IMG/VR virus record: IMGVR_UViG_3300049783_001023
Coordinates: 1 to 20,312 of that record
Direction: 5' to 3' (one strand)
From: a virus
Length of the DNA stretch: 20,312 nt
Part shown: piece by piece, positions 3,029 to 13,614 of the stretch
Layout of the letters: the number at the start of each line of letters is the position of its first letter
Numbering within the stretch: the first letter of the stretch is position 1
The notes under the pieces: generated by a model
What the model saw: only the letters and a program-made list of their open reading frames with translations
Databases searched by the model: none
Told to the model about the DNA's origin: nothing
Position numbers and translations under genes: made by a program

Positions 3029-3907
3029 ATGAAAAATTTTATACCGGGTATTAAGAGCAAAATTAGCAAAGGACTTAACGATAAAGTTGATTCTAAACTG
3101 AACAAAATTGGTAACGATTTCGATGTTAACAATTTGTCGTCTGCCTTGCGATCTCGTAATATCCCAACAGGTGCAGAAGCTTTGCAGCGTACATCAATGC
3201 AAGCATCGTTTGTTGCGAGTAATGCTGAACGAGACTGGCGTGTAAGCTTGTCCGTTCCGTTCATACCGTCTTTTACGAATAGCGCGATTCTAGCACCGCT
3301 TGCTGAAACAGGAAGTAGGTTAATTTTTCCATACTCTCCGACAATCATAATGAGCCATTCAGCAAATTACAATGCTACAAACCCTACTCATACTAACTAT
3401 ACTTATTCCAGTTACGTTAGCAGCCAGGTAGATGCGATTAACATTACGGGCGACTTTACTGTTGAAAACGAGAAAGAGGGAGTATATTGGATAGCGATGC
3501 TACATTACCTGCGTTCGGTGTCTAAAATGTTTTACGGTGAAAATGACCCAAACAGCGGCAATCCGCCACCAATAGTTAAATTAAACGGATACGGAGATTT
3601 TGTGTTTAACAACGTCCCGGTAGTAATTCAAAACTTTACAGTTGACATGCAGCCAGATATAGATTACATTGCTTGTTCAGTTGGCGGCGGCGAAGTTATT
3701 CCGCCAGCATACGATTTTGATGACAGATACTTTAAACCTGATATAAGTAATAACCTAGACGGGAAGCCAGGCATTTCTTGGGTACCAACGCGAAGCACAT
3801 TATCAGTAACAGTACAGCCAATTTACTCAAGAAAGAGCATTTCGCAATTCAGTTTGTCGGATTTTGTTAACGGCAGCTATGTTAAAAATGGCAAAGGATT
3901 TATCTAA
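3029..3907 (+). CDS. 48: gp48-like baseplate tail-tube cap protein
   Basis: This structural protein sits on top of the central hub and gives the platform on which the tail tube polymerises. The diagnostic part runs from about 69 to 170: DWRVSLSVPF, then an APL..T..LIFPYSPTI segment (89-107), THTNYTYSSY (120-129), ITGDFTVEN (139-147), and YLRSVSKMFYG (160-170). These follow the gp48 family rather than gp54. It continues with PPPIVKLNGYGDFVFNNVPVV (179-199) and ends in VTVQPIYSR...FVNGSYVKNGKGFI. At 292 residues it is somewhat shorter than T4 gp48 (about 360). The first 45 residues are Lys/Asn-rich and probably extended. The AGGAG at 3012-3016 is 12 bases from the ATG, longer than usual, but no other in-frame start fits because a TAG at 3011 blocks extension. 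Its stop overlaps the ATG of gp53 (TAATG). Confidence 0.9.
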   Translation: MKNFIPGIKSKISKGLNDKVDSKLNKIGNDFDVNNLSSALRSRNIPTGAEALQRTSMQASFVASNAERDWRVSLSVPFIPSFTNSAILAPLAETGSRLIFPYSPTIIMSHSANYNATNPTHTNYTYSSYVSSQVDAINITGDFTVENEKEGVYWIAMLHYLRSVSKMFYGENDPNSGNPPPIVKLNGYGDFVFNNVPVVIQNFTVDMQPDIDYIACSVGGGEVIPPAYDFDDRYFKPDISNNLDGKPGISWVPTRSTLSVTVQPIYSRKSISQFSLSDFVNGSYVKNGKGFI

Positions 3908-4212
3908 TGGCAGCAAAATACAGCAAAAGCAGTCCGTGGGCAGAAACTACAACAATAGCAGGACCGTATCTTGATAGATTAAAGATACGTTCAATTCCTG
4001 CAGAAGATGACGACTTTTTATACACAGTTGAGCCACAGTACACTTACAGGCCAGATCTATTAGCCCACGATATCTACGGCTCTTCTAAACTATGGTGGGT
4101 ATTTGCCCAGCGCAACATGGACATAATTAAAGATCCAGTTTTTGACATGGTGCCGGGAACACAAATTTTCCTACCAAAATCATCGTCACTTAGACAACAA
4201 CTAGGAATATAA
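3907..4212 (+). CDS. 53: gp53-like baseplate wedge protein (LysM-like fold)
   Basis: This is a small wedge component; in T4, gp53 binds the wedge assembly and helps clamp wedges around the hub. The 101 residues contain the family core: a YTYRPDLLAHDIYG stretch (45-58), LWWVFAQRN (62-70), DP at 76-77, and a final GTQIFLP (84-90) typical of LysM-like domains in tail proteins. T4 gp53 has 196 residues, so this is a minimal version holding only the core and a short basic tail. The ATG overlaps the gp48 stop by one base, with AAAGGA eight bases upstream inside gp48. The downstream gene begins immediately after its TAA. Catalytic activity is not expected. The assignment is good; a generic name such as LysM-type baseplate protein would be equally acceptable. 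Confidence 0.85.
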   Translation: MAAKYSKSSPWAETTTIAGPYLDRLKIRSIPAEDDDFLYTVEPQYTYRPDLLAHDIYGSSKLWWVFAQRNMDIIKDPVFDMVPGTQIFLPKSSSLRQQLGI

Positions 4213-6573
4213 ATGCCAGACGATACAAGCCCTACAAGTAATATTAACGTTGGACAAACTCGAGAAGCCGGCGCCACTACAGGGATGGTAATTGGTATTA
4301 ACAAAGGCCTTCCGCAAGATAAGCAATCAAAAGGTGAAGCACCAGCTCCGGTAGGTAAATCACCGGGCTTGCCCTTGCCTAATCCGTTACATACCTATAC
4401 CTCGTTTAATTCAATTTTTACACTTTATTTGTTAACTCCGGAAGAATACAACTTTCCAGACTTATCTTATAAACGCGGAATCGAACCAAAAAATGTATTA
4501 CTTCGATCAGGCGGCCAAAGTACCCGTTTTAATAAAACAGCTTACGAAGAAGCTAACGGAGTAGTTGAGTACTACATGGAAGATCTTTCGATAGATTCTG
4601 TTGTAGCTCCTAATAAGCTCACAGGAACTTCATTGTCAACTACAATGACTTTTAAAATTACAGAGCCTTACAGCTTAGGAATGTTCCTTGAAACAATTAA
4701 AATAAATGCGTACAGAGAAGGGTACGTTAGTCATATTGATGCTCCTTTATTAATAAAAGTAGATTTTAAAGGATGGAACGACAACGGCAACAGCGAAGAT
4801 ATAGGACAAACTCGATATATTCCGATTAAAATTACTAACATGCGTATTACTGCTACAGAATCAGGCAGTGCATACGAAATAGAAGCAGTTACTTATAATC
4901 AATCAGCACTAGCTGATCAAATACAAACAACTAATCAAGACATATCAATTACAGGAAGTAACTTAATTGAAGTGTTACAAACTGGTCCAGAATCACTAGC
5001 AACACGACTTAATGAGCGTGCTATTGAAAACGAAAAAGAAAAAAATAGTGTTCGCGGCGATCGATACATTATACAAATACCAGATGATGTATCTAGCTTT
5101 TTTAATACAGGACAAGACAGAGCTAACGATTCGGGCGATGGCGCAACAGTTGGTCCTGCTAGTCTATCATTTAATGATCGCTTTAATCAGTCGATTAATT
5201 TAATTGATCAACCTAGTGAATCTGAACTTGTATCTCGCCAAGAAACGTTTAAGAAATTATACAGCGGCGGCGGAGACAAAAACATATTAGAGCGTCTTGC
5301 ATTTGCTGCCCGCGAAAACGTTAATTTTAAAATTGGATTAAAAAGAGTTATTGGAGACTGGACTGCTCCGGGAGAACTTCCGTATCCTCTGCCTGGTACT
5401 GTTATTGACGAAGATACCGGACTGTACAAACGACAAACAAAAGGAATGGAAATATCAGACGACAGACGCCGTTTTACTTTTACCTCAGGCACAAAGATTG
5501 AAAAAATTATTGAAATGATGCTAGTAAACAGCGCTTACGGTAGAGGGCTAGTTGAGCAATTTTGTAATACTCCCGTTGACGGCATGATTAACTGGTTCCG
5601 AATAGAAACACAAGTTTTTATTGACACCAACGTTGAGCAAGCAAAACGTGGAGGACGATATCCGCTAATTTACGTTTATCGTGTTGTAGAATACAAGCTA
5701 CTTCATACCTTTTTTAAAGCACCAACTGTTCCGTCGATAGGAATGGAAAATGCGCGTAACCAGGTTGTAAAAGAGTATAACTATTTGTACACAGGAAAAA
5801 GCCAAGATATACTTGATTTTAATCTTGAATTTAACAATGCTTATTTTATGAACTTGCCAGCAGACTACGGAAATGCAGGTCTAGAAACAAGAGGCGGCGG
5901 TGCTAACACAGGCACAATTAACGATCCGACACAGAAGTTCCAAGTAGGCGAAGCAGGCTCAGCAGGCTCACAAGGAGTTGCAGCCTCACAAATAACACGA
6001 TCAGCTTCTGGATTATCAGGTGTTCAATCGCTTGATGCAGAAACTCGTGTTGCTATGGAAATGCACAAAGCATTTATTAATAGCAGCGCTGACTTAATTA
6101 CTTTAGAATTACAAATTTTAGGCGACCCGTATTTCCTTCCAAACAGCGGACTGGGAAATTACGTAGAAGAAGATTCGTTAGAACCAGGATTATTTAACAT
6201 TAAGCCAGACGGCTCAATGAATCATTTAAACGGCCAAGTAAATATTAACATAATTTTCCAAACTCCTGTTGATATTAGCGAAGATGGTCTATACGATTTT
6301 TCTAAAACTATTAACGAAAAAGGAAACGTGGTTTCTGGATTCAGCGGAATTTATAGAGTTATAACAGTAGTACACAATTTTAATAACGGACTATTTACAC
6401 AAACGCTAGAGCTTGTTCGTCATAGAGATCAAGAAACATCGGATACAAAAAATACTCCAGTACTTACTTGTGCTCCTCCAGAGCTACAAAGCGGAGTAAG
6501 ACAGCAAAATATACAAAAAGCTGAAATAGCTGCAATAAACGAACGAAACGCAAACTTATCGGATACATTTTAA
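4213..6573 (+). CDS. baseplate hub-like virion structural protein
   Basis: This 786-residue structural protein occupies the place where a hub protein (T4 gp27 equivalent) is expected, just before gp5. The N-terminal 60 residues are polar and Pro/Gly-rich. A beta-rich region (about 116-240) includes YYMEDLSIDSVV and ITEPYSLGMFLETIK, a type of segment I associate with large structural proteins of marine T4-like phages. Residues about 575-610 are Gly/Ser/Ala-rich and look like a flexible linker. The C-terminal part has GDP (637-639) in LQILGDPYFLPNSG and ends with FSGIYRVITVV (710-720) and FTQTLELVR, resembling the closing strands of tail-hub (gpD/gp27-type) domains. The start directly abuts the gp53 stop, with TAGGA six bases before the ATG. 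Structural role is likely; the gp27 equivalence is inference from position and motif style. Confidence 0.6.
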   Translation: MPDDTSPTSNINVGQTREAGATTGMVIGINKGLPQDKQSKGEAPAPVGKSPGLPLPNPLHTYTSFNSIFTLYLLTPEEYNFPDLSYKRGIEPKNVLLRSGGQSTRFNKTAYEEANGVVEYYMEDLSIDSVVAPNKLTGTSLSTTMTFKITEPYSLGMFLETIKINAYREGYVSHIDAPLLIKVDFKGWNDNGNSEDIGQTRYIPIKITNMRITATESGSAYEIEAVTYNQSALADQIQTTNQDISITGSNLIEVLQTGPESLATRLNERAIENEKEKNSVRGDRYIIQIPDDVSSFFNTGQDRANDSGDGATVGPASLSFNDRFNQSINLIDQPSESELVSRQETFKKLYSGGGDKNILERLAFAARENVNFKIGLKRVIGDWTAPGELPYPLPGTVIDEDTGLYKRQTKGMEISDDRRRFTFTSGTKIEKIIEMMLVNSAYGRGLVEQFCNTPVDGMINWFRIETQVFIDTNVEQAKRGGRYPLIYVYRVVEYKLLHTFFKAPTVPSIGMENARNQVVKEYNYLYTGKSQDILDFNLEFNNAYFMNLPADYGNAGLETRGGGANTGTINDPTQKFQVGEAGSAGSQGVAASQITRSASGLSGVQSLDAETRVAMEMHKAFINSSADLITLELQILGDPYFLPNSGLGNYVEEDSLEPGLFNIKPDGSMNHLNGQVNINIIFQTPVDISEDGLYDFSKTINEKGNVVSGFSGIYRVITVVHNFNNGLFTQTLELVRHRDQETSDTKNTPVLTCAPPELQSGVRQQNIQKAEIAAINERNANLSDTF

Positions 6574-8900
6574 TGGCACGATCAGATACACACTATACAC
6601 AGAGTAAGCGAAAGCACGATACGCTAGATCCAGGCCCTTATGAGGCAGTTGTACTATCTCATCTTGATCCTAAATTTATGGGAGGGTTACAAGTAGAGCT
6701 ACTTAAAAATACTACTACTGGTAATGCACCGTCACGTTCAGGGTTAACCGCAGAAGTAAGATACCTAACACCGTTTTACGGCATTACTCCTCGCGAAGGA
6801 GTTAACCAAAACGATGGCTACGAAAATAGCCAAAAGTCCTACGGAATGTGGATGATACCGCCAGATGTTGGCACACACGTTCTTGTTATATTTGCTGAAG
6901 GAAATCCAGGACAAGGCTTTTGGATAGGGTGTATTCCAGATACTTACATGAACTTTATGATGCCTGGTAATGCGTCTACAAACCGTACAAGTGATAACAC
7001 ACCAACTGCGCTTAAAGGAAAGAAATTACCTGTAGCAGAATACAACAAACGTACATTAAATGCAGGCGGTGTCGAAACACGTCCGACAACATTTAATAAG
7101 CCGTACCACAAAGAATTTACTCGCAGCTTATTAAAACAAGGGCTACTTGACGACGAAACGCGAGGAACAACAACCTCAAGCGCACGTCGCGAAGTCCCGT
7201 CAATGGTGTTTGGAATATCAACGCCAGGCCAAGTTGACCGCAAAGGTAAAACATCTTCGTTAGGTCCTAAAGAAGGTCCTGCAAACGTACCAACTAACAG
7301 ATTAGGCGGATCGTCGTTTGTAATGGACGACGGCGACCCAACACTTATACGTAAAGGCCACCCTAAAAACAGCCCCTCAGAATATGCAAATATTGAGCGC
7401 GGCGAAGAAGTGCCAGAAGACCGCACACTTTTACAAAACGAATTAATGCGTTTTCGTACTAGAACTGGCCATCAAATTCTTATGCACGATACAGAGGATT
7501 TAATTTACATTGGCAATGCACGAGGAACATCGTGGATAGAACTTACTAGCAACGGTAAAATTGATATCTACGCTGAAGATAGTATAAGCGTACATACAGC
7601 ACAAGATCTAAACTTTACAGCAGATAGAGACATTAACTTTACCGCTGGTGAAGATATGAACATGGTAGTTGGTAAGCGACAGCGCAACGATGTTGGCGGA
7701 TCTATTAATACTACATCGGGTGAAAATATTGCATTTAACGCCTCTACAAGCTTTAGTACACATGCGAATACATCACAGTCCCATTATGCAAAAGAAAGCT
7801 TTACAGCAGTTGCACAAGCAGGTAACGCTACCTTGCTTGCAGGAGGCAACTTAACTATTGGGGCAACAGGACAAATAGCTATTGAAGCAGATGGCAGAAT
7901 TGCAATATCTACAGAAGCAGAGTTACATGCAATTTCAAAGTTAGCGACTAAAATGGAAGTAACTACAGGAGATTTTAATTTAATAACCCGAGACGGCAAA
8001 CAACTTTATACTGCTCTTACTAATGATAGTGCTCCGAATATTATTGAACACAACGGAACGCCAGCAGTAAAACCAGCGATACCGACTAAGCCTGTACCAA
8101 TAAAACCTACTGCACCATTTCGTGCGTCAGTAGCAGCGCGTGTTCCACAACATGAACCGTGGTACCAACATGAAAACCTAAATCCGCTTAATTTTGTCCC
8201 TGAAAAAACACGAGCAGGAGCAGGACAATCAGAAGCATATCCGCCTGTTACTTTTGATACATTTGACACCCGCACAAAAGTTACTGTAGAAACTTCAACA
8301 ACGCAAGAAGCAGCACCGGCTCAATTTGACGCTACTACAGGCGTGCGCGATGTAGCAGAAGGATCGCCTGCATTAAACTCGGGAACTACAGCTACAAGCA
8401 CTCAACCAGTGCCAAGAAACATACGGGAGCTAGGTGACAAGACACAGGCGTATGCAGAAGCAGTTGCTAGACGAGAATCTAACAATTCGTATGATGCAGT
8501 TGGTGCAGACGGTAGACTGGGCAGATATCAAATTACTGCATCATCACTAGAAGTTAATGGCTACTTAAAATCAGGATCGTTTGTTGAGTTTGGCCAAGCT
8601 GCCGTTAATCAAGCTGCTAACTGGACAGGAAAAGACGGAGTACACAATTCAGCTGTTTACCTTGCAGATAAGGTAACGCAAGAAAACGTCTTTATTATCT
8701 TCACTGAAAACAACTTAGCCGCACTAAAATCTCTAGGTACAATTATTGCAACTAATCCTGTGAGTACTATAGCTGGCATACTTTTTGTAGCGCACAAGTT
8801 AGGAGTGTCTAATGCAGCAGCTTGGAGAGACGGATCGGCAGGCCGAGATTCGTTTGGTACAACAGCAGACGAATACTTTAAATTAGGGGCAGCAATATGA
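6573..8900 (+). CDS. 5: gp5-like baseplate central spike with C-terminal transglycosylase-like domain
   Basis: This trimeric puncturing spike pierces the outer membrane on tail contraction. Residues about 22-130 form the gp5/VgrG OB domain (YEAVVLSHLDPKFMGGLQVE, then MWMIPPDVGTHVLV and GQGFWIGCI). No lysozyme domain is inserted after it, unlike T4; 130-320 is polar with no recognised enzyme. Residues about 325-475 make the triple-stranded beta-helix, with an octad rhythm visible as DLNFTADR/DINFTAGE/DMNMVVGK from 345. A Pro/Lys linker (about 493-515) and a Thr/Ala-rich stretch lead to a C-terminal domain (about 625-775). This contains ARRESNN with E635, then GRLGRYQITASSL, the pattern of SLT/transglycosylase-type folds around the catalytic Glu. 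Its ATG overlaps the upstream stop (TAATG) with only a weak GGA before it; its TGA overlaps the next ATG. The spike call is secure; the enzyme call is moderate. Confidence 0.9.
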   Translation: MARSDTHYTQSKRKHDTLDPGPYEAVVLSHLDPKFMGGLQVELLKNTTTGNAPSRSGLTAEVRYLTPFYGITPREGVNQNDGYENSQKSYGMWMIPPDVGTHVLVIFAEGNPGQGFWIGCIPDTYMNFMMPGNASTNRTSDNTPTALKGKKLPVAEYNKRTLNAGGVETRPTTFNKPYHKEFTRSLLKQGLLDDETRGTTTSSARREVPSMVFGISTPGQVDRKGKTSSLGPKEGPANVPTNRLGGSSFVMDDGDPTLIRKGHPKNSPSEYANIERGEEVPEDRTLLQNELMRFRTRTGHQILMHDTEDLIYIGNARGTSWIELTSNGKIDIYAEDSISVHTAQDLNFTADRDINFTAGEDMNMVVGKRQRNDVGGSINTTSGENIAFNASTSFSTHANTSQSHYAKESFTAVAQAGNATLLAGGNLTIGATGQIAIEADGRIAISTEAELHAISKLATKMEVTTGDFNLITRDGKQLYTALTNDSAPNIIEHNGTPAVKPAIPTKPVPIKPTAPFRASVAARVPQHEPWYQHENLNPLNFVPEKTRAGAGQSEAYPPVTFDTFDTRTKVTVETSTTQEAAPAQFDATTGVRDVAEGSPALNSGTTATSTQPVPRNIRELGDKTQAYAEAVARRESNNSYDAVGADGRLGRYQITASSLEVNGYLKSGSFVEFGQAAVNQAANWTGKDGVHNSAVYLADKVTQENVFIIFTENNLAALKSLGTIIATNPVSTIAGILFVAHKLGVSNAAAWRDGSAGRDSFGTTADEYFKLGAAI

Positions 8901-9649
8901 GTCAGATTATAATACCAGAATCTGGCATACTTGATCCTAGTCGTGTTATTCAGCCAGCTGAAACAGCCGTTTATGACTCAGTGTATAAGTCGTCAGCATT
9001 ACAAACAGACGAGAAAGATATAGCAGGAAACCAAGATCCTCCTGGGTACCAAAACGGGTCGCCAGGAGGAGCAGGCGCTGAAGGCAACTTTATTCAGTAC
9101 TCTTCAACAGACGCAAAAGATACAGGAACATGGACTTCTCTTAATAACTTCTTAAAAGTAACAGAATCACAAGCTTGGAAAGAAAACGGCCGTAATCCTA
9201 ACATTATTCAATGTGTTGCAGCATGTAATGTTATAACCGAAAACGACAAAACTCCGCCGTGGTGCGCAGGGTTTGTTGCTTATGTCTTACAGCAATCAGG
9301 ATTTAATTCAATTCGTTCTTTAAGCTCTCAAGCGTATAAAAAGTACGGCAAGCCTGTTGATTGGCGGGACTGGCAAGATGTGCGCAAAAACGATATTATT
9401 ATATTTAAAAGCAAAACTGGGCCAGGTGGGCACATAGGATTCGTTAGCAGCTACAACCCCAAAACAGGTCGTGTAGCTGTTTACGGAGGCAATCAGCGTA
9501 ATGACGCACGTATATCAAACTTCACGGTTAACGGACCAACGCTGTACGTTACAGACGTTCGTAGGGGGTGGGAGATACCTAAATCAGCAGACGTAAGTAT
9601 CATTAACGGAAACTCCACAGATGTATTAGTGGATCCAAATACTAGGTAA
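8897..9649 (+). CDS. NlpC/P60-CHAP-type peptidoglycan hydrolase (TIGR02594-like)
   Basis: This looks like a papain-fold cell-wall amidase or endopeptidase. Residues about 80-218 form the catalytic domain. The nucleophile is C123 in PPWCAGFVAYVLQQSG; the His is H179 in GGHIGFV; a polar third residue is probably within GGNQ (197-200). The intervening KNDIIIF segment and the SSQAYKKYGKPV stretch fit the TIGR02594 pattern as I know it. The first 80 residues are polar and disordered-looking, with no signal peptide. The ATG lies inside the gp5 stop (ATGA), with AGGGG seven bases upstream, so it is co-translated with the spike. That linkage suggests a tail-associated lysin acting at injection. A late-expressed endolysin released by a holin is the alternative. 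Domain family confidence is high; bond specificity and location are unknown. Confidence 0.85.
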   Translation: MSQIIIPESGILDPSRVIQPAETAVYDSVYKSSALQTDEKDIAGNQDPPGYQNGSPGGAGAEGNFIQYSSTDAKDTGTWTSLNNFLKVTESQAWKENGRNPNIIQCVAACNVITENDKTPPWCAGFVAYVLQQSGFNSIRSLSSQAYKKYGKPVDWRDWQDVRKNDIIIFKSKTGPGGHIGFVSSYNPKTGRVAVYGGNQRNDARISNFTVNGPTLYVTDVRRGWEIPKSADVSIINGNSTDVLVDPNTR

Positions 9650-9656
9650 ATAGTAG

Positions 9657-10103
9657 ATGAGCACAATAGAAAAGAACTTAATTAAACGTGTAAGCGTCAA
9701 TTCGCCCAAGGCACCAGAAGCGCCTGTTACTAGCACTAACTATCGCGGATTAAGCACGGTTGATCCTGAACGCCGATCAACCGTTTTATACGACTTAGAA
9801 CTAATTAAACAAGATTTGATCAATCACTTTCACATACGTCAAGGTGAGAAGTTAGAAAATCCTACGTTTGGTACTATTATATGGGACGTCTTATATGACC
9901 CGCTAACAGATCAGCTTAAAGAAGTTATCACTGAAAACATAACAACAATTATTAACAGCGATCCTCGTATTGTTGTCGATCAAATAACTGTTGATTCGTT
10001 TGAAAGTGGCATTCAAATTGAATGCGATTTAACCTACCTGCCTTATAATATATCAGAATCTATGCGATTTTCCTTTGATCAGAATAATGGGTTATTAGCG
10101 TAA
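9657..10103 (+). CDS. 25: gp25-like baseplate wedge protein
   Basis: This core wedge protein belongs to the GPW/gp25 family, conserved across contractile tails and type VI secretion (TssE). It contacts gp6 and the first sheath ring and helps trigger sheath contraction. The family core starts at about residue 42: DLELIKQDLINHFHIRQGE (46-64), then NPTFGTIIWDVLYDPL (68-83), a helix with EVITENITTII, and a terminal beta pair around VDQITVDSF and IQIECDLTYLP. At 148 residues it is slightly longer than T4 gp25 (132) because of a polar N-terminal extension of about 40 residues. The ATG is seven bases after the hydrolase stop. The Shine-Dalgarno is weak (TAGG ten bases upstream, overlapping that stop). 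A 58-base gap separates it from gp6, unlike the tight junctions before it. Identification is secure. Confidence 0.95.
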   Translation: MSTIEKNLIKRVSVNSPKAPEAPVTSTNYRGLSTVDPERRSTVLYDLELIKQDLINHFHIRQGEKLENPTFGTIIWDVLYDPLTDQLKEVITENITTIINSDPRIVVDQITVDSFESGIQIECDLTYLPYNISESMRFSFDQNNGLLA

Positions 10104-10161: not shown

Positions 10162-13100
10162 ATGTCAGCAACTAACAGACAGAACCGTCTCCTCGTAGCA
10201 GAGGATTGGAAGAGAGTATATCAGAGCTTCCGTAATGCAGATTTTCAGAGCTATGACTTTGATAACCTGCGTCGTACAATGATCAATTATCTTAGGGAAA
10301 ACTATCCTGAGGACTTTAACGATTATATTGAAAGCAGCGAGTATCTTGCGCTTATTGATATGATTGCGTTCTTAGGCCAAAACCTGTCATTTCGTATTGA
10401 TCTTAATGCACGTGAAAACTTTATTGATCTAGCTGAACGTAGAGAATCAGTACTACGCCTTGCGCGTCTACTTTCATATAATGTGAAACGTAACCAAGCA
10501 GCAAACGGCTTGCTTAAAATAGATTCAGTGCAAACAACAGAATCAGTAATTGATGCAAACAATATTAACTTAGCAGGACAAACAATAGTTTGGAATGATC
10601 CGTCTAACGAAAATTGGTATGAGCAGTTTATTAAAATTATAAACGCAGCGTTACCAGTTAACAACACGTTTGGTCGTCCTACAAAAAGTGACAGAATAGC
10701 AGGTATTCCTACAGAGCAATATCGCTTTAATGCACTTAACACAGATACTCCAGTATACTCATTTAGCAAGAACGTTGAAGGTAGTAACACTACATTTGAA
10801 GTTGTGTCAACTGATATTGTTAACGGCGAAATTTTAGAAGAACCACCGTTATTATCAAACAGCCTTGCAATGCTTTATCGTGACGATGGTCGCGGAGCAG
10901 GCTCGTCTAACACAGGCTTCTTTTCGCACTTCCGTCAGGGCACACTTGACAAGGGTGTGTTTACGGTTACACAGCCAGTTCCTAACCAGATTATTGGCAT
11001 TGATGGCCGCAACATTAACAATAGTGATGTATGGCTTTACAAGATTGATAGCGAAGGAAACGAAACAGAATTTTGGACTAAGGTTGATGCTGTTGAAGGC
11101 AACAACATTATCTATAACAGTCTAAGCAAAAAGATACGTAACGTCTACGCAGCATTAACTCGTGCAGAAGACCGTGTTAATTTAGTTTTTAGCGACGGTG
11201 TTTTTGGTAACTTACCAAGCGGTCAGTTCCGTGTTTATTACCGTTCTTCAGCAAATAGAAGAGTGTTTATACAGCCAAACGAAATACAAGCCGTTACCGT
11301 TGTTGTACCTTACCTAAGCAGAAACGGAACAGTTGAAGAAGCTACATTGCGTATGTCACTTAAAGTGGCAATTGACAACGGTTCTCCTACTGAAACTAAC
11401 GAAAGCGTTAAGACTAATGCACCGTCAACGTATTATACTCAAAACAGAATGATTACTCCTGAGGACTATAACGTTGCTCCGCTAGGCGTGTCGCAAGAAA
11501 TTATTAAAGTAAAAGCCGTTAACAGAACATCAAGCGGCATTAGTCGTTACTTTGATCTTATTGACGCATCTGGCAAATACAGCACAGTAAATCTTTATGG
11601 AACAGACGGTGTACTTTATAAGCAAGCACTATCAGAAAAAGCGAAATTTACTTTCCAAACACAAACAGATATTGAAGGTGTTGTACTTAATACGATTGAA
11701 CCGTTGTTAAAAGACAGAAAGCTATTAAACTTCTATTATCAGAATTTTCCAAAGATACTTACTACAGACCTCGGCGCAACTTGGTCACAATCAACATCAG
11801 GCACAAATAGCTCAACGGGCTTGCTGCAAGATGCTGAAGGACAATTATATTCAGTAGGATCATTTGCTACTAACTCGCTTAAAAATCTTACTGTAGGTAC
11901 ACTTTGTAAATTTATTCCTCCAACAGGCGAGTACTTTACGGCAGACGGAAAATCACTACCAGGCGATGCTACAGTAGTAGGCGCAAGTCTTTATAAGTGG
12001 ACCAAGGTAGTTAGTATTGATGGACGAGGAACGGCTATAACAGACGGCATAGGCCCTATTCAGTTTAACGATGTTATTCCAGAAAGTGCTTTACTTGTTG
12101 AATTACGCCCTGCATTAGCAACAGCAATTACTTCTGATGTTAAAACACAAATTGTTGATCAAGCATTTAGCTTTAATACATTTGGTTTACGATATGATGT
12201 ATCACAAAAGAGTTGGCGTTTGATTACAAACACAAACGTTGATATTGATTCTCCGTTCTCAACAGGTCGACAAGGCGATGTAACTAATCAGAATTTAGAT
12301 GCAAGCTGGCTTTTACTATTCCAGACAAACGGGGAAACATACACAATTACTTACCGCGGCTTGCGTTATGTATTTGAAAGCAAAGACGAGATTAAATTCT
12401 ATTACGATTCGTCAGATACAATTTATGACAGTAACTTAGGACGTATTGTTAAAGATAAGATACAAGTTATGTCAATCAATACACAACCAGACAGCACGTC
12501 GCCGTTTACTATTGACCACGACTGGGAAATTATTGAAGAGTTCCGCGACAAAGAAGGCTACGTAGATACTAATAAAATTCAAGTAGGATTTTATGATAGT
12601 GACGCTGACGGCGTTGTAGATGACATTGATGTGTTTAACATTATCGTTGACGAAGGCACTAATACCACAGAGAAGTTTATTTTCCAGCAGTCGTATCAGA
12701 ATACAGACGGAGTAGAAGACTTCCAGTACGTTGATCAAACAGCAGCAAATATTACAGTAGTTGCAACAGAAATAGCTATTGGTACTTACAGTCAGTACGA
12801 CGACGGCATAGTATTTTACATAGTAGACCGCGATACATTCCGTGTATTAGATGCTACAAGTTTAACGCTTAACTTAACTTCTGAATACCGCGCTTATGTA
12901 GGTCGCAGTGATATTAAGTTCTATTACTTGCACGCAGCAGATGCTAATTCAAGAATCGATCCGTCGGTAAGTAACATTATAGATATGTTTATCTTAACAC
13001 GTACATATGATACATTGTATCGTCGTTACCTTGCAGGCGCGCTAGCAGCGGCTCCGTTACCGCCAAGCAGTGATTCATTATTCCTTTCTTTTGGAAACGA

Positions 13101-13614
13101 ATTAAAGAAGATCAAAAGTATTAGCGATGAGGTGATCTATCATCCGGTTAAGTACAAAGTACTATTTGGATCAAAGGCGAATGAAGATTTGAGAGCAACA
13201 TTTAAAATTGTAAAAAACCCAGACTTAGTTGTCAACGACAACGATGTGAAGACGCGAGTTATTGAAGCTATTAGTCAATACTTTGCTTTGGAAAATTGGG
13301 ACTTCGGTGAGACATTTTACTTTAGTGAATTGTCGGCATACGTAATGAATCAGCTTGCACCGGACATAGTTTCTTTTGTAATTGTTCCTGTTCAACAAAG
13401 CCAAAGCTTTGGTTCATTATACGAAATACGTTCAGAATCAGACGAGATAGTTATCAACGGCGCAACTGTTGATGACGTAGAAATTATCGACGCTATTACT
13501 GCAACACGCCTACAAGCAAGTGGCAAGGTTATCACATCATCAGCAGAAACTATTGTTGGCGTAGTAAGCTCGTCACTAACAACAACCCCAACTACCGGAG
13601 GCTTTAACTTCTAA
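10162..13614 (+). CDS. 6: gp6-like baseplate wedge protein, enlarged
   Basis: This protein forms the continuous wedge ring around the hub and belongs to the baseplate J/gp47 superfamily. The N-terminal signature is clear at 41-115: NYLRENYPEDFNDYIESSEY, then LIDMIAFLGQNLSFRIDLNA and RLARLLSYNVKRNQAANG. A central gpJ-like part near 345-450 includes FSDGVFGNLPSGQFRVYYR and ITPEDYNVAPLG. The C-terminus (about 1024-1130) has ENWDFGETFYFSELSAYVMN and DEIVINGATVDDVEIIDAITA, which I recognise as the conserved end of T4-type gp6. At 1150 residues it is far longer than T4 gp6 (about 660), the extra being in the middle. A DSDADGVVDDID loop (812-823) looks like a calcium-binding site. The ATG follows AAGGA by seven bases, and the TAA overlaps the next gene's ATG. 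Confidence 0.93.
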   Translation: MSATNRQNRLLVAEDWKRVYQSFRNADFQSYDFDNLRRTMINYLRENYPEDFNDYIESSEYLALIDMIAFLGQNLSFRIDLNARENFIDLAERRESVLRLARLLSYNVKRNQAANGLLKIDSVQTTESVIDANNINLAGQTIVWNDPSNENWYEQFIKIINAALPVNNTFGRPTKSDRIAGIPTEQYRFNALNTDTPVYSFSKNVEGSNTTFEVVSTDIVNGEILEEPPLLSNSLAMLYRDDGRGAGSSNTGFFSHFRQGTLDKGVFTVTQPVPNQIIGIDGRNINNSDVWLYKIDSEGNETEFWTKVDAVEGNNIIYNSLSKKIRNVYAALTRAEDRVNLVFSDGVFGNLPSGQFRVYYRSSANRRVFIQPNEIQAVTVVVPYLSRNGTVEEATLRMSLKVAIDNGSPTETNESVKTNAPSTYYTQNRMITPEDYNVAPLGVSQEIIKVKAVNRTSSGISRYFDLIDASGKYSTVNLYGTDGVLYKQALSEKAKFTFQTQTDIEGVVLNTIEPLLKDRKLLNFYYQNFPKILTTDLGATWSQSTSGTNSSTGLLQDAEGQLYSVGSFATNSLKNLTVGTLCKFIPPTGEYFTADGKSLPGDATVVGASLYKWTKVVSIDGRGTAITDGIGPIQFNDVIPESALLVELRPALATAITSDVKTQIVDQAFSFNTFGLRYDVSQKSWRLITNTNVDIDSPFSTGRQGDVTNQNLDASWLLLFQTNGETYTITYRGLRYVFESKDEIKFYYDSSDTIYDSNLGRIVKDKIQVMSINTQPDSTSPFTIDHDWEIIEEFRDKEGYVDTNKIQVGFYDSDADGVVDDIDVFNIIVDEGTNTTEKFIFQQSYQNTDGVEDFQYVDQTAANITVVATEIAIGTYSQYDDGIVFYIVDRDTFRVLDATSLTLNLTSEYRAYVGRSDIKFYYLHAADANSRIDPSVSNIIDMFILTRTYDTLYRRYLAGALAAAPLPPSSDSLFLSFGNELKKIKSISDEVIYHPVKYKVLFGSKANEDLRATFKIVKNPDLVVNDNDVKTRVIEAISQYFALENWDFGETFYFSELSAYVMNQLAPDIVSFVIVPVQQSQSFGSLYEIRSESDEIVINGATVDDVEIIDAITATRLQASGKVITSSAETIVGVVSSSLTTTPTTGGFNF

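Follow-up and report, generated by a model that had tools for sequence, protein, structure and literature searches.

The window analysed here, 20,312 bases of the virus record IMGVR_UViG_3300049783_001023 (IMG/VR, positions 1 to 20,312), reads on its + strand as a T4-like baseplate operon whose spike complex probably carries two complementary enzymes for cutting the bacterial wall. One would be the C-terminal domain of the spike protein gp5, the other the 250-residue product of the next gene. Sequence and predicted fold indicate that both domains are present with intact active-site residues, that the pair occupies a spike position in the operon and that the second domain is naturally fused to gp5 or to PAAR in relatives; from this we infer presence in the virion, a mode of docking, both activities and joint action. 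The initial annotation had proposed two peptidoglycan hydrolases encoded back to back and joined by an ATGA, and this arrangement holds: gp5 (6573-8900) and the 250-residue open reading frame (ORF; 8897-9649) overlap at 8897-8900. The elements of the pair are:

6573..8900, + strand: gp5-like spike, 775 residues, with OB region, beta-helix, linker and C-terminal glycan-type domain (phrog_13211, E = 1.3e-48; DUF2345 over cut-off)
8448..8897, + strand: lytic-transglycosylase-like domain, gp5 residues 626-775 (best stretch of phrog_27932, 626-774; AlphaFold model)
8475..8477, + strand: codon of the presumed catalytic Glu635 (invariant in 26/26 rows; motif in 16/16)
8885..8889, + strand: Shine-Dalgarno-like AGGGG inside gp5, 7 nucleotides before the hydrolase ATG
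8897..8900, + strand: ATGA, overlap of the gp5 stop and the hydrolase start (ORF calls, letters)
8897..8941, + strand: conserved N-terminal segment of the hydrolase, residues 1-15, then a variable linker; presumed docking peptide (motif, identity)
8897..9649, + strand: standalone CHAP/NlpC-P60 hydrolase, 250 residues (CHAP over cut-off; TIGR02594, E = 1.6e-16; fold)
9122..9586, + strand: predicted catalytic domain within the hydrolase, roughly residues 76-230 (Pfam, model, fold)
9263..9265, + strand: codon of Cys123, presumed nucleophile (Cys in 32/33 distinct sequences, Ser in locus L095)
9431..9433, + strand: codon of His179 (33/33 distinct sequences)
9491..9493, + strand: codon of Asn199, presumed third catalytic residue (33/33 distinct sequences)

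Two putative wall-cutting domains in adjacent genes

The gp5 product is recognizable as a T4-type spike by its match to phrog_13211, by DUF2345, which covers the beta-helix region and scores over its cut-off, and by gp25 and gp6 as neighbours; the OB-fold profile Phage_base_V reaches 21.1 bits, below its cut-off of 23.8. A lysozyme placed as in T4, between OB fold and beta-helix, is absent, and the enzyme domain of the window gp5 is C-terminal, past the beta-helix region. Judged from profile and model, this C terminus is lytic-transglycosylase-like, in line with the glycan-cleaving type first assigned to it. The family phrog_27932 ('baseplate hub subunit and tail lysozyme') matches the whole protein with E = 7.6e-27 and its best stretch at residues 626-774, and the AlphaFold model of residues 526-775, with a mean predicted local distance difference test score (pLDDT) of 76.5 and values >90 over most of the domain, matches MltE (Z 11.1, root-mean-square deviation (rmsd) 3.4, 148 residues), followed by Cj0843, MltC, phiKZ gp144, Slt70 and goose-type lysozymes. 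The region had been taken to start at 8461, which is indeed within the glycan-type domain, but the domain begins earlier, near 8448. Glu635 falls within helix 96-111 of the model, near the end of the core helix, where a catalytic Glu is looked for. Together with Ser636, parts of the G-x-Y-Q motif and the W-T-G motif, it is invariant in an alignment of 26 rows hand-picked from the window and from loci of the hydrolase-domain and gp5-domain scans described below, and R-E-S ... G-[KR]-Y-Q is present in 16/16 transglycosylase-like gp5 proteins adjoining a hydrolase. The Pfam profile Transglycosylas (PF06737) matches the gp5 C terminus weakly (E = 0.09; 13.9 bits against a cut-off of 27), and a sequence search of solved structures with the gp5 tail matched none. 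Rhizobium and Agrobacterium phages, OLIVR5 for example, also have this domain in gp5, at a mid-protein position ahead of the beta-helix.

The tail of gp5 is a swap site. Among 135 complete gp5 proteins, the window included, the tails form clusters of 74, 20, 17 and 6, which, named from one scanned representative apiece, correspond to a VgrG3-like C-terminal domain, an M15 peptidase, no enzyme (L062) and GH19. A motif E-P-[W/Y/F], searched anywhere in the protein, occurs in 207/209 complete gp5 proteins, 195 of which have H-E-P-[W/Y/F]; it is located near residue 525 of the window gp5 and precedes the variable part there and in the relatives' tails inspected.

The protein encoded next is, by sequence and predicted fold, a CHAP/NlpC-P60 hydrolase, predicted to cleave a peptide or amide bond. 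Pfam CHAP (PF05257) matches it with E = 1e-6 (29.6 bits, cut-off 26) and phrog_1259 with E = 1.5e-16, and TIGR02594 gives E = 1.6e-16 with 60.8 bits, short of the NCBIfam cut-off of 70.55. Profile matches for gp5 and the hydrolase alike lie far beyond chance. The hydrolase model (mean pLDDT 74.0; residues 1-8, 29-72 and 239-250 below 50) matches the autolysin Acd24020 (Z 12.2, rmsd 2.9, 116 residues), and further fold matches comprise the endolysin LysIME-EF1, MepS, the diffocin chain 8v3w_H (Z 10.7) and Tse1 (Z 8.2). The Cys/His pair C123/H179 of the initial annotation occupies exactly these places, and Asn199 is likely the third residue: in the model, Cys123 is located at a helix start, His179 at a strand start and Asn199 just past the next strand. 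Conservation was counted over 33 distinct hydrolase sequences from loci with baseplate genes. Foldseek listed no match at E <= 0.001 for the hydrolase model or for the gp5-tail model, and the fold claims for both domains rest on the families heading the Foldseek lists and on a second look with VIA-align. Solved structures searched with the single hydrolase sequence gave none, and a hydrolase profile matched them weakly (two dipeptidyl-peptidase VI entries, E = 0.0058 and 0.0063; CwlO, 0.061; an unrelated lipoyl synthase, 0.5).

Recurrence, exchange and fusion of the pair

A scan of IMG/VR gave no hits when the query was the hydrolase sequence by itself, and an alignment of the domain was needed. 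The hydrolase-domain scan is represented by the best 80 of at least 316 confirmed loci, drawn from at least 598 stretches, the gp5-domain scan by the best 80 of 198 loci, and the scans for gp6 and gp5 likeness by the best 80 of 487 and the best 80 of at least 599, respectively. A separate hydrolase in a baseplate context was tabulated for 33 contigs, the window and some near-identical ones included, and gp25 is visible downstream in 32 of these. Where the gp5 end is readable (32 contigs), it is transglycosylase-like in 16, GH19-like in 13 and degenerate GH19-like in L095; two (L196, L207) have no enzyme found by Pfam. All 13 GH19-like gp5 proteins have the T-E-S and R-G-x-I-Q motifs, both absent from L095. 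Their assignment was made by motif and alignment (13/13) and by BLASTP between loci, with Pfam GH19 remaining under its cut-off in L180, L182, L183, L184 and L186 and not listed for L189, L193 and L195. According to the hydrolase tree, which was built without L095, L191, L212 and L219 and with four outgroups, and in which the fork around the window is not settled, the hydrolase has been retained across at least one change in the type of the upstream glycan module. These comparisons support the proposal that a tail tip combines a glycan-type with a peptide- or amide-type cutter, as do the position between gp5 and gp25 and the fusions described next.

The hydrolase lies between gp5 and gp25 and, in some relatives, directly ahead of a PAAR-like ORF: the ORF between hydrolase and gp25 is PAAR-like in 7/7 loci tested (over the Pfam cut-off in 2/7; the second ORF in L207). 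In L179 a gp5 belonging to the same family ends in the fused hydrolase, with no glycosidase found in it, and in L212 and L219 the domain is inside Gp5_OB proteins. Fusion to PAAR is seen in L198 and L209, the latter located between a short gp5 of 258 residues and gp25/gp6. Taken together, the fusions to gp5 and to PAAR, the PAAR-like ORFs and the two-domain gp5 of Pseudomonas phage Cygsa01 (see below) suggest three ways of attachment, as part of gp5, as a separate gene product or as part of PAAR, and make a tip-bound hydrolase the best reading of these sequences. Since related viruses keep the pair or fuse the second cutter to spike or tip, both enzymes probably aid tail drilling.

Several observations weigh against a tip-bound pair. 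Among 159 loci retrieved for their resemblance in gp6 or gp5, only L095 has a hydrolase relative, and in 64/103 loci with such a relative BLASTP from the window detects neither gp25 nor gp6, some of these loci being cut short or too distant. The neighbours scanned near L203, which resembles the PAAR fusion L198, and near L188 included ribonucleotide reductase and no baseplate gene. In the window and in the other transglycosylase-type loci with visible gp25, too little space is left before gp25 to fit a PAAR ORF. L095 (4939-9587) has Ser in place of the hydrolase Cys and Gln at the GH19 Glu, and lacks R-G-x-I-Q; having lost both catalytic residues, it indicates that the slot can persist without activity. 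Its hydrolase domain forms the end of a 517-residue protein, with about 400 other residues ahead of it.

Beyond these viruses, three hydrolase queries against 50,697 named phages (E 1e-3) found no place covering 80% of the protein. Distant relatives of the hydrolase occur in 25 bacterial contigs (L337-L361), several labelled as Rhodobacteraceae, and are perhaps parts of prophage or gene transfer agent tails.

In loci with short gp5, the slot before gp25 is occupied by a different ORF of 336-540 residues (L053:6496-7506, L065:5878-7500, L066:1961-3259, L081:2935-4233). The short gp5 of L053, L066 and L081 have no enzyme by Pfam, and the slot ORF of L053 weakly matches tape measure proteins. L160 (7959-12177), like locus L157, has a slot ORF of 546 residues with an endolysin-like stretch (phrog_90, E = 2.1e-15 in L160), next to a gp5 whose C-terminal module could not be firmly assigned to a type; a search of solved structures with the L160 ORF found no related structure. 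An M15-like peptidase in L160 gp5, considered from a motif, gave E = 4.8 by BLASTP against the M15 region of L144 and is not claimed.

The + strand of the window encodes, in order, a 292-residue structural protein, gp53, a 786-residue structural protein, gp5, the 250-residue hydrolase, gp25, gp6 and a very long ORF. The neighbours named by profiles are:

3907..4212, + strand: gp53-like baseplate wedge protein (phrog_7145, E = 8.4e-27; Pfam Phage_gp53 under cut-off)
4213..6573, + strand: 786-residue structural protein directly 5' of gp5 (phrog_11190 'virion structural protein', E = 3.1e-32; same place in phage Paride), probably the hub of the baseplate
9657..10103, + strand: gp25-like baseplate wedge protein (GPW_gp25, 27.4 bits, cut-off 27.2; phrog_261, E = 4.1e-14)
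10162..13614, + strand: gp6-like baseplate wedge protein (phrog_10646, E = 1.2e-298)

Pseudomonas phage Paride has a matching annotated order (structural, wedge, structural, hub/lysozyme, then wedge genes), and genes for a sigma factor and an SbcD-like protein also lie there, upstream and on the opposite strand. Searches with gp6 and gp5 named Salicola SCTP-2, Phosso, the PA5oct group and Atu_ph07 as relatives. Their recorded hosts are Gram-negative.

Proposed action at the spike and its alternatives

We propose that gp5 forms the spike and that its transglycosylase-like C-terminal domain would cut glycan strands, while the separate CHAP/NlpC-P60 enzyme would cleave the stem peptides at a peptide or amide bond. 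The latter most likely rides on the spike near the tip, docked by its conserved N-terminal segment through a flexible linker, and tail contraction would bring both enzymes to the wall, where a local hole may be opened. The candidate docking segment was recognized by its conservation: over 28 sequences (L095, L179, L191, L212 and L219 left out), mean pairwise identity is 0.51 for residues 1-15 and 0.52 for the catalytic core (121-185), compared with 0.23 for residues 16-40. The starts of 29/32 hydrolases carry the motif M-[C/S/G]-[Q/N]-[V/I]-x-[V/I]-P, in which one residue is optional; since the motif was written from the same sequences, this is no independent test, and the control is that none of the 3281 other ORFs in these loci contains it. 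Among the 29 hydrolases bearing the motif, 21 have Cys as residue 2; the window has Ser there (8897-8902). A docking peptide followed by a linker would fit these data, by analogy with the N-terminal part of the type VI secretion system (T6SS) effector Tae17 on VgrG17; against it stands that the docking role comes from conservation alone and that residues 1-8 have pLDDT <50. Extending the analogy, we tentatively suggest that the spike may be loaded like a T6SS tip, the hydrolase being detachable cargo on its docking peptide that persists while the gp5 glycan cutter is swapped between transglycosylase and GH19, or that moves onto gp5 or PAAR by fusion; T4-like phages of probably Gram-negative hosts would then have a spike with two complementary wall enzymes that are separate from each other.

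The further proposal that the overlap couples synthesis of the two proteins at matched amounts is not borne out. Only 4 of the 32 readable junctions overlap by 4 nucleotides, compared with 22 that overlap by 1 nucleotide and 6 with a gap of 1-10 nucleotides, and AGG or GGA lies 4-17 nucleotides upstream of 32/32 hydrolase starts (23% at random positions), a four-base Shine-Dalgarno-like core being present at 26/32 (9% at random positions). As the ATGA is not conserved and every start has a Shine-Dalgarno-like core, matched amounts do not follow. The other junctions of the window operon range from -1 to +58 nucleotides. Programmed frameshifting that would fuse gp5 and hydrolase was considered and rejected, there being no in-frame slippery heptamer near the overlap by eye.

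The standalone hydrolase could instead be an endolysin, co-transcribed with late structural genes and acting at lysis via a holin. That eight Pfam families detect no other wall hydrolase in five related records of 47-122 kb, all fragments, counts in favour of such a role and against a spike-bound enzyme, as does Proteus phage PM-CJR, in which a hydrolase relative lies between an annotated holin and a spanin. The search comprised CHAP in 12 related records, without a second wall hydrolase, and seven more families in 5 of them; SLT (3/5 records) and GH19 (5/5) gave only below-cut-off matches, in open frames of 866-908 residues, the size of gp5. It was leaky, however: CHAP was found once in 10/12 records and missed in those of L177 and L312, both of which hold the hydrolase, so that the negatives for a separate endolysin are weak, and the family control was positive in 4/14 named genomes. 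The neighbours of the window hydrolase that profiles name are baseplate genes, in a window that is a fragment and in which no search was aimed at holins. The location between gp5 and gp25 in more than 30 contigs, the fusions to gp5 and PAAR and the conserved N-terminal segment all oppose lysis as the main task, and we regard an endolysin as improbable. The hydrolase may nevertheless act in lysis, alone or in addition to a role at the spike, although location and fusions speak against this as its main role.

If both enzymes are used, the hydrolase might still be a free helper that is not bound to the spike, with a task such as passing or assembling through the wall. Such a role would suit a polypeptide made separately, whose linker is predicted with low confidence, and TagX, a T6SS-associated wall hydrolase, is reported to be needed for biogenesis (PMC5061870). 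This explanation is nevertheless quite unlikely, because the fusions to gp5 and PAAR put the domain at the tip in relatives and inspection by eye revealed no apparent signal peptide or membrane segment in the hydrolase. Finally, one or both domains might be mainly structural or wall-binding, without catalysis, as suggested by the substitutions in L095 and by RipD, titled a non-catalytic NlpC/P60 protein, among the fold matches of the hydrolase. With Cys kept in 32/33 sequences, His and Asn in 33/33 and Glu635 in 26/26 rows, we consider a non-catalytic role very improbable. A spike loaded with two complementary cutters thus remains our preferred interpretation.

Relation to known systems

T4 gp5 is a spike with a glycan-cutting lysozyme, the one enzyme at that position, located inside gp5 before the beta-helix. 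The window gp5 resembles it as a spike with a putative glycan-cutting domain; the window adds a second enzyme and a C-terminal placement. The earlier contrast with T4 as a phage with one enzyme here is thus true as general knowledge, but the two glycan cutters are not in equivalent places, since the window domain follows the beta-helix.

Among named phages, the cultured Cygsa01 comes close: its gp5 (PP179332, annotated as a hypothetical protein) is a Gp5_OB spike containing SLT and CHAP and is followed by an annotated baseplate wedge gene, as in the window, but both domains reside in one polypeptide of 1129 residues. Of 652 phage records matching this two-domain query, Cygsa01 alone covered 80% of it. 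Klebsiella phage 0507-KN2-1, whose gp5 was the only one scanned from the Ackermannviridae, likewise has a Gp5_OB protein with CHAP adjoining an annotated gp25; unlike in the window, CHAP is within gp5, and Pfam found no glycosidase.

A 2017 review names only PRD1 and phi11 as having two different virion-associated lysins and assigns all two-lytic-domain virion lysins to phages of Gram-positive bacteria (PMC5380687), and a 2018 review places endopeptidase-type catalytic domains almost exclusively in phages of Gram-positive hosts (PMC6116005). HydH5 of Staphylococcus phage phiIPLA88 is reported as a virion-associated protein with CHAP and lysozyme domains, both active in assays (PMC3150257); it differs from the pair described here in being a single protein from a phage of a Gram-positive host. 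The T6SS provides a further spike-delivered combination of transglycosylase and amidase, Tae17 on VgrG17, in which the N terminus of the cargo is described as binding the C-terminal region of the spike non-covalently (PMC11796386). There, both activities reside on the cargo and the machine is a secretion system rather than a phage tail.

A close parallel is the hub-hydrolase CD1368 of diffocin, reported to combine in one baseplate a lytic transglycosylase with an endopeptidase, which are predicted to cleave glycan and peptide bonds, a pair that its authors link to the Gram-positive envelope (PMC10996793). As in the window, both bond types would be addressed from one contractile-machine baseplate, and the endopeptidase part (8v3w_H, 465-581) matches the fold of the hydrolase (Z 10.7). 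In contrast to diffocin, where both enzymes reside on one gp27-like hub, the transglycosylase is likened to MltA and the target is Gram-positive, the window has a gp5 domain and a separate gene. In the titles and abstract openings of the literature searched, no CHAP enzyme encoded by its own gene between gp5 and gp25 is described. A transglycosylase combined with an endopeptidase in one baseplate is already known from diffocin, but giving the hydrolase a gene of its own within the spike operon of a T4-like tail looks like a new variation. What our comparison suggests is a T4-like spike that pairs its glycan cutter with a peptide-type cutter made separately, and a place at the spike where one enzyme family may appear as a gp5 fusion, a separate gene or a PAAR fusion; if true, this would be a testable phage parallel to the loading of VgrG/PAAR cargo and a source of naturally paired wall enzymes.

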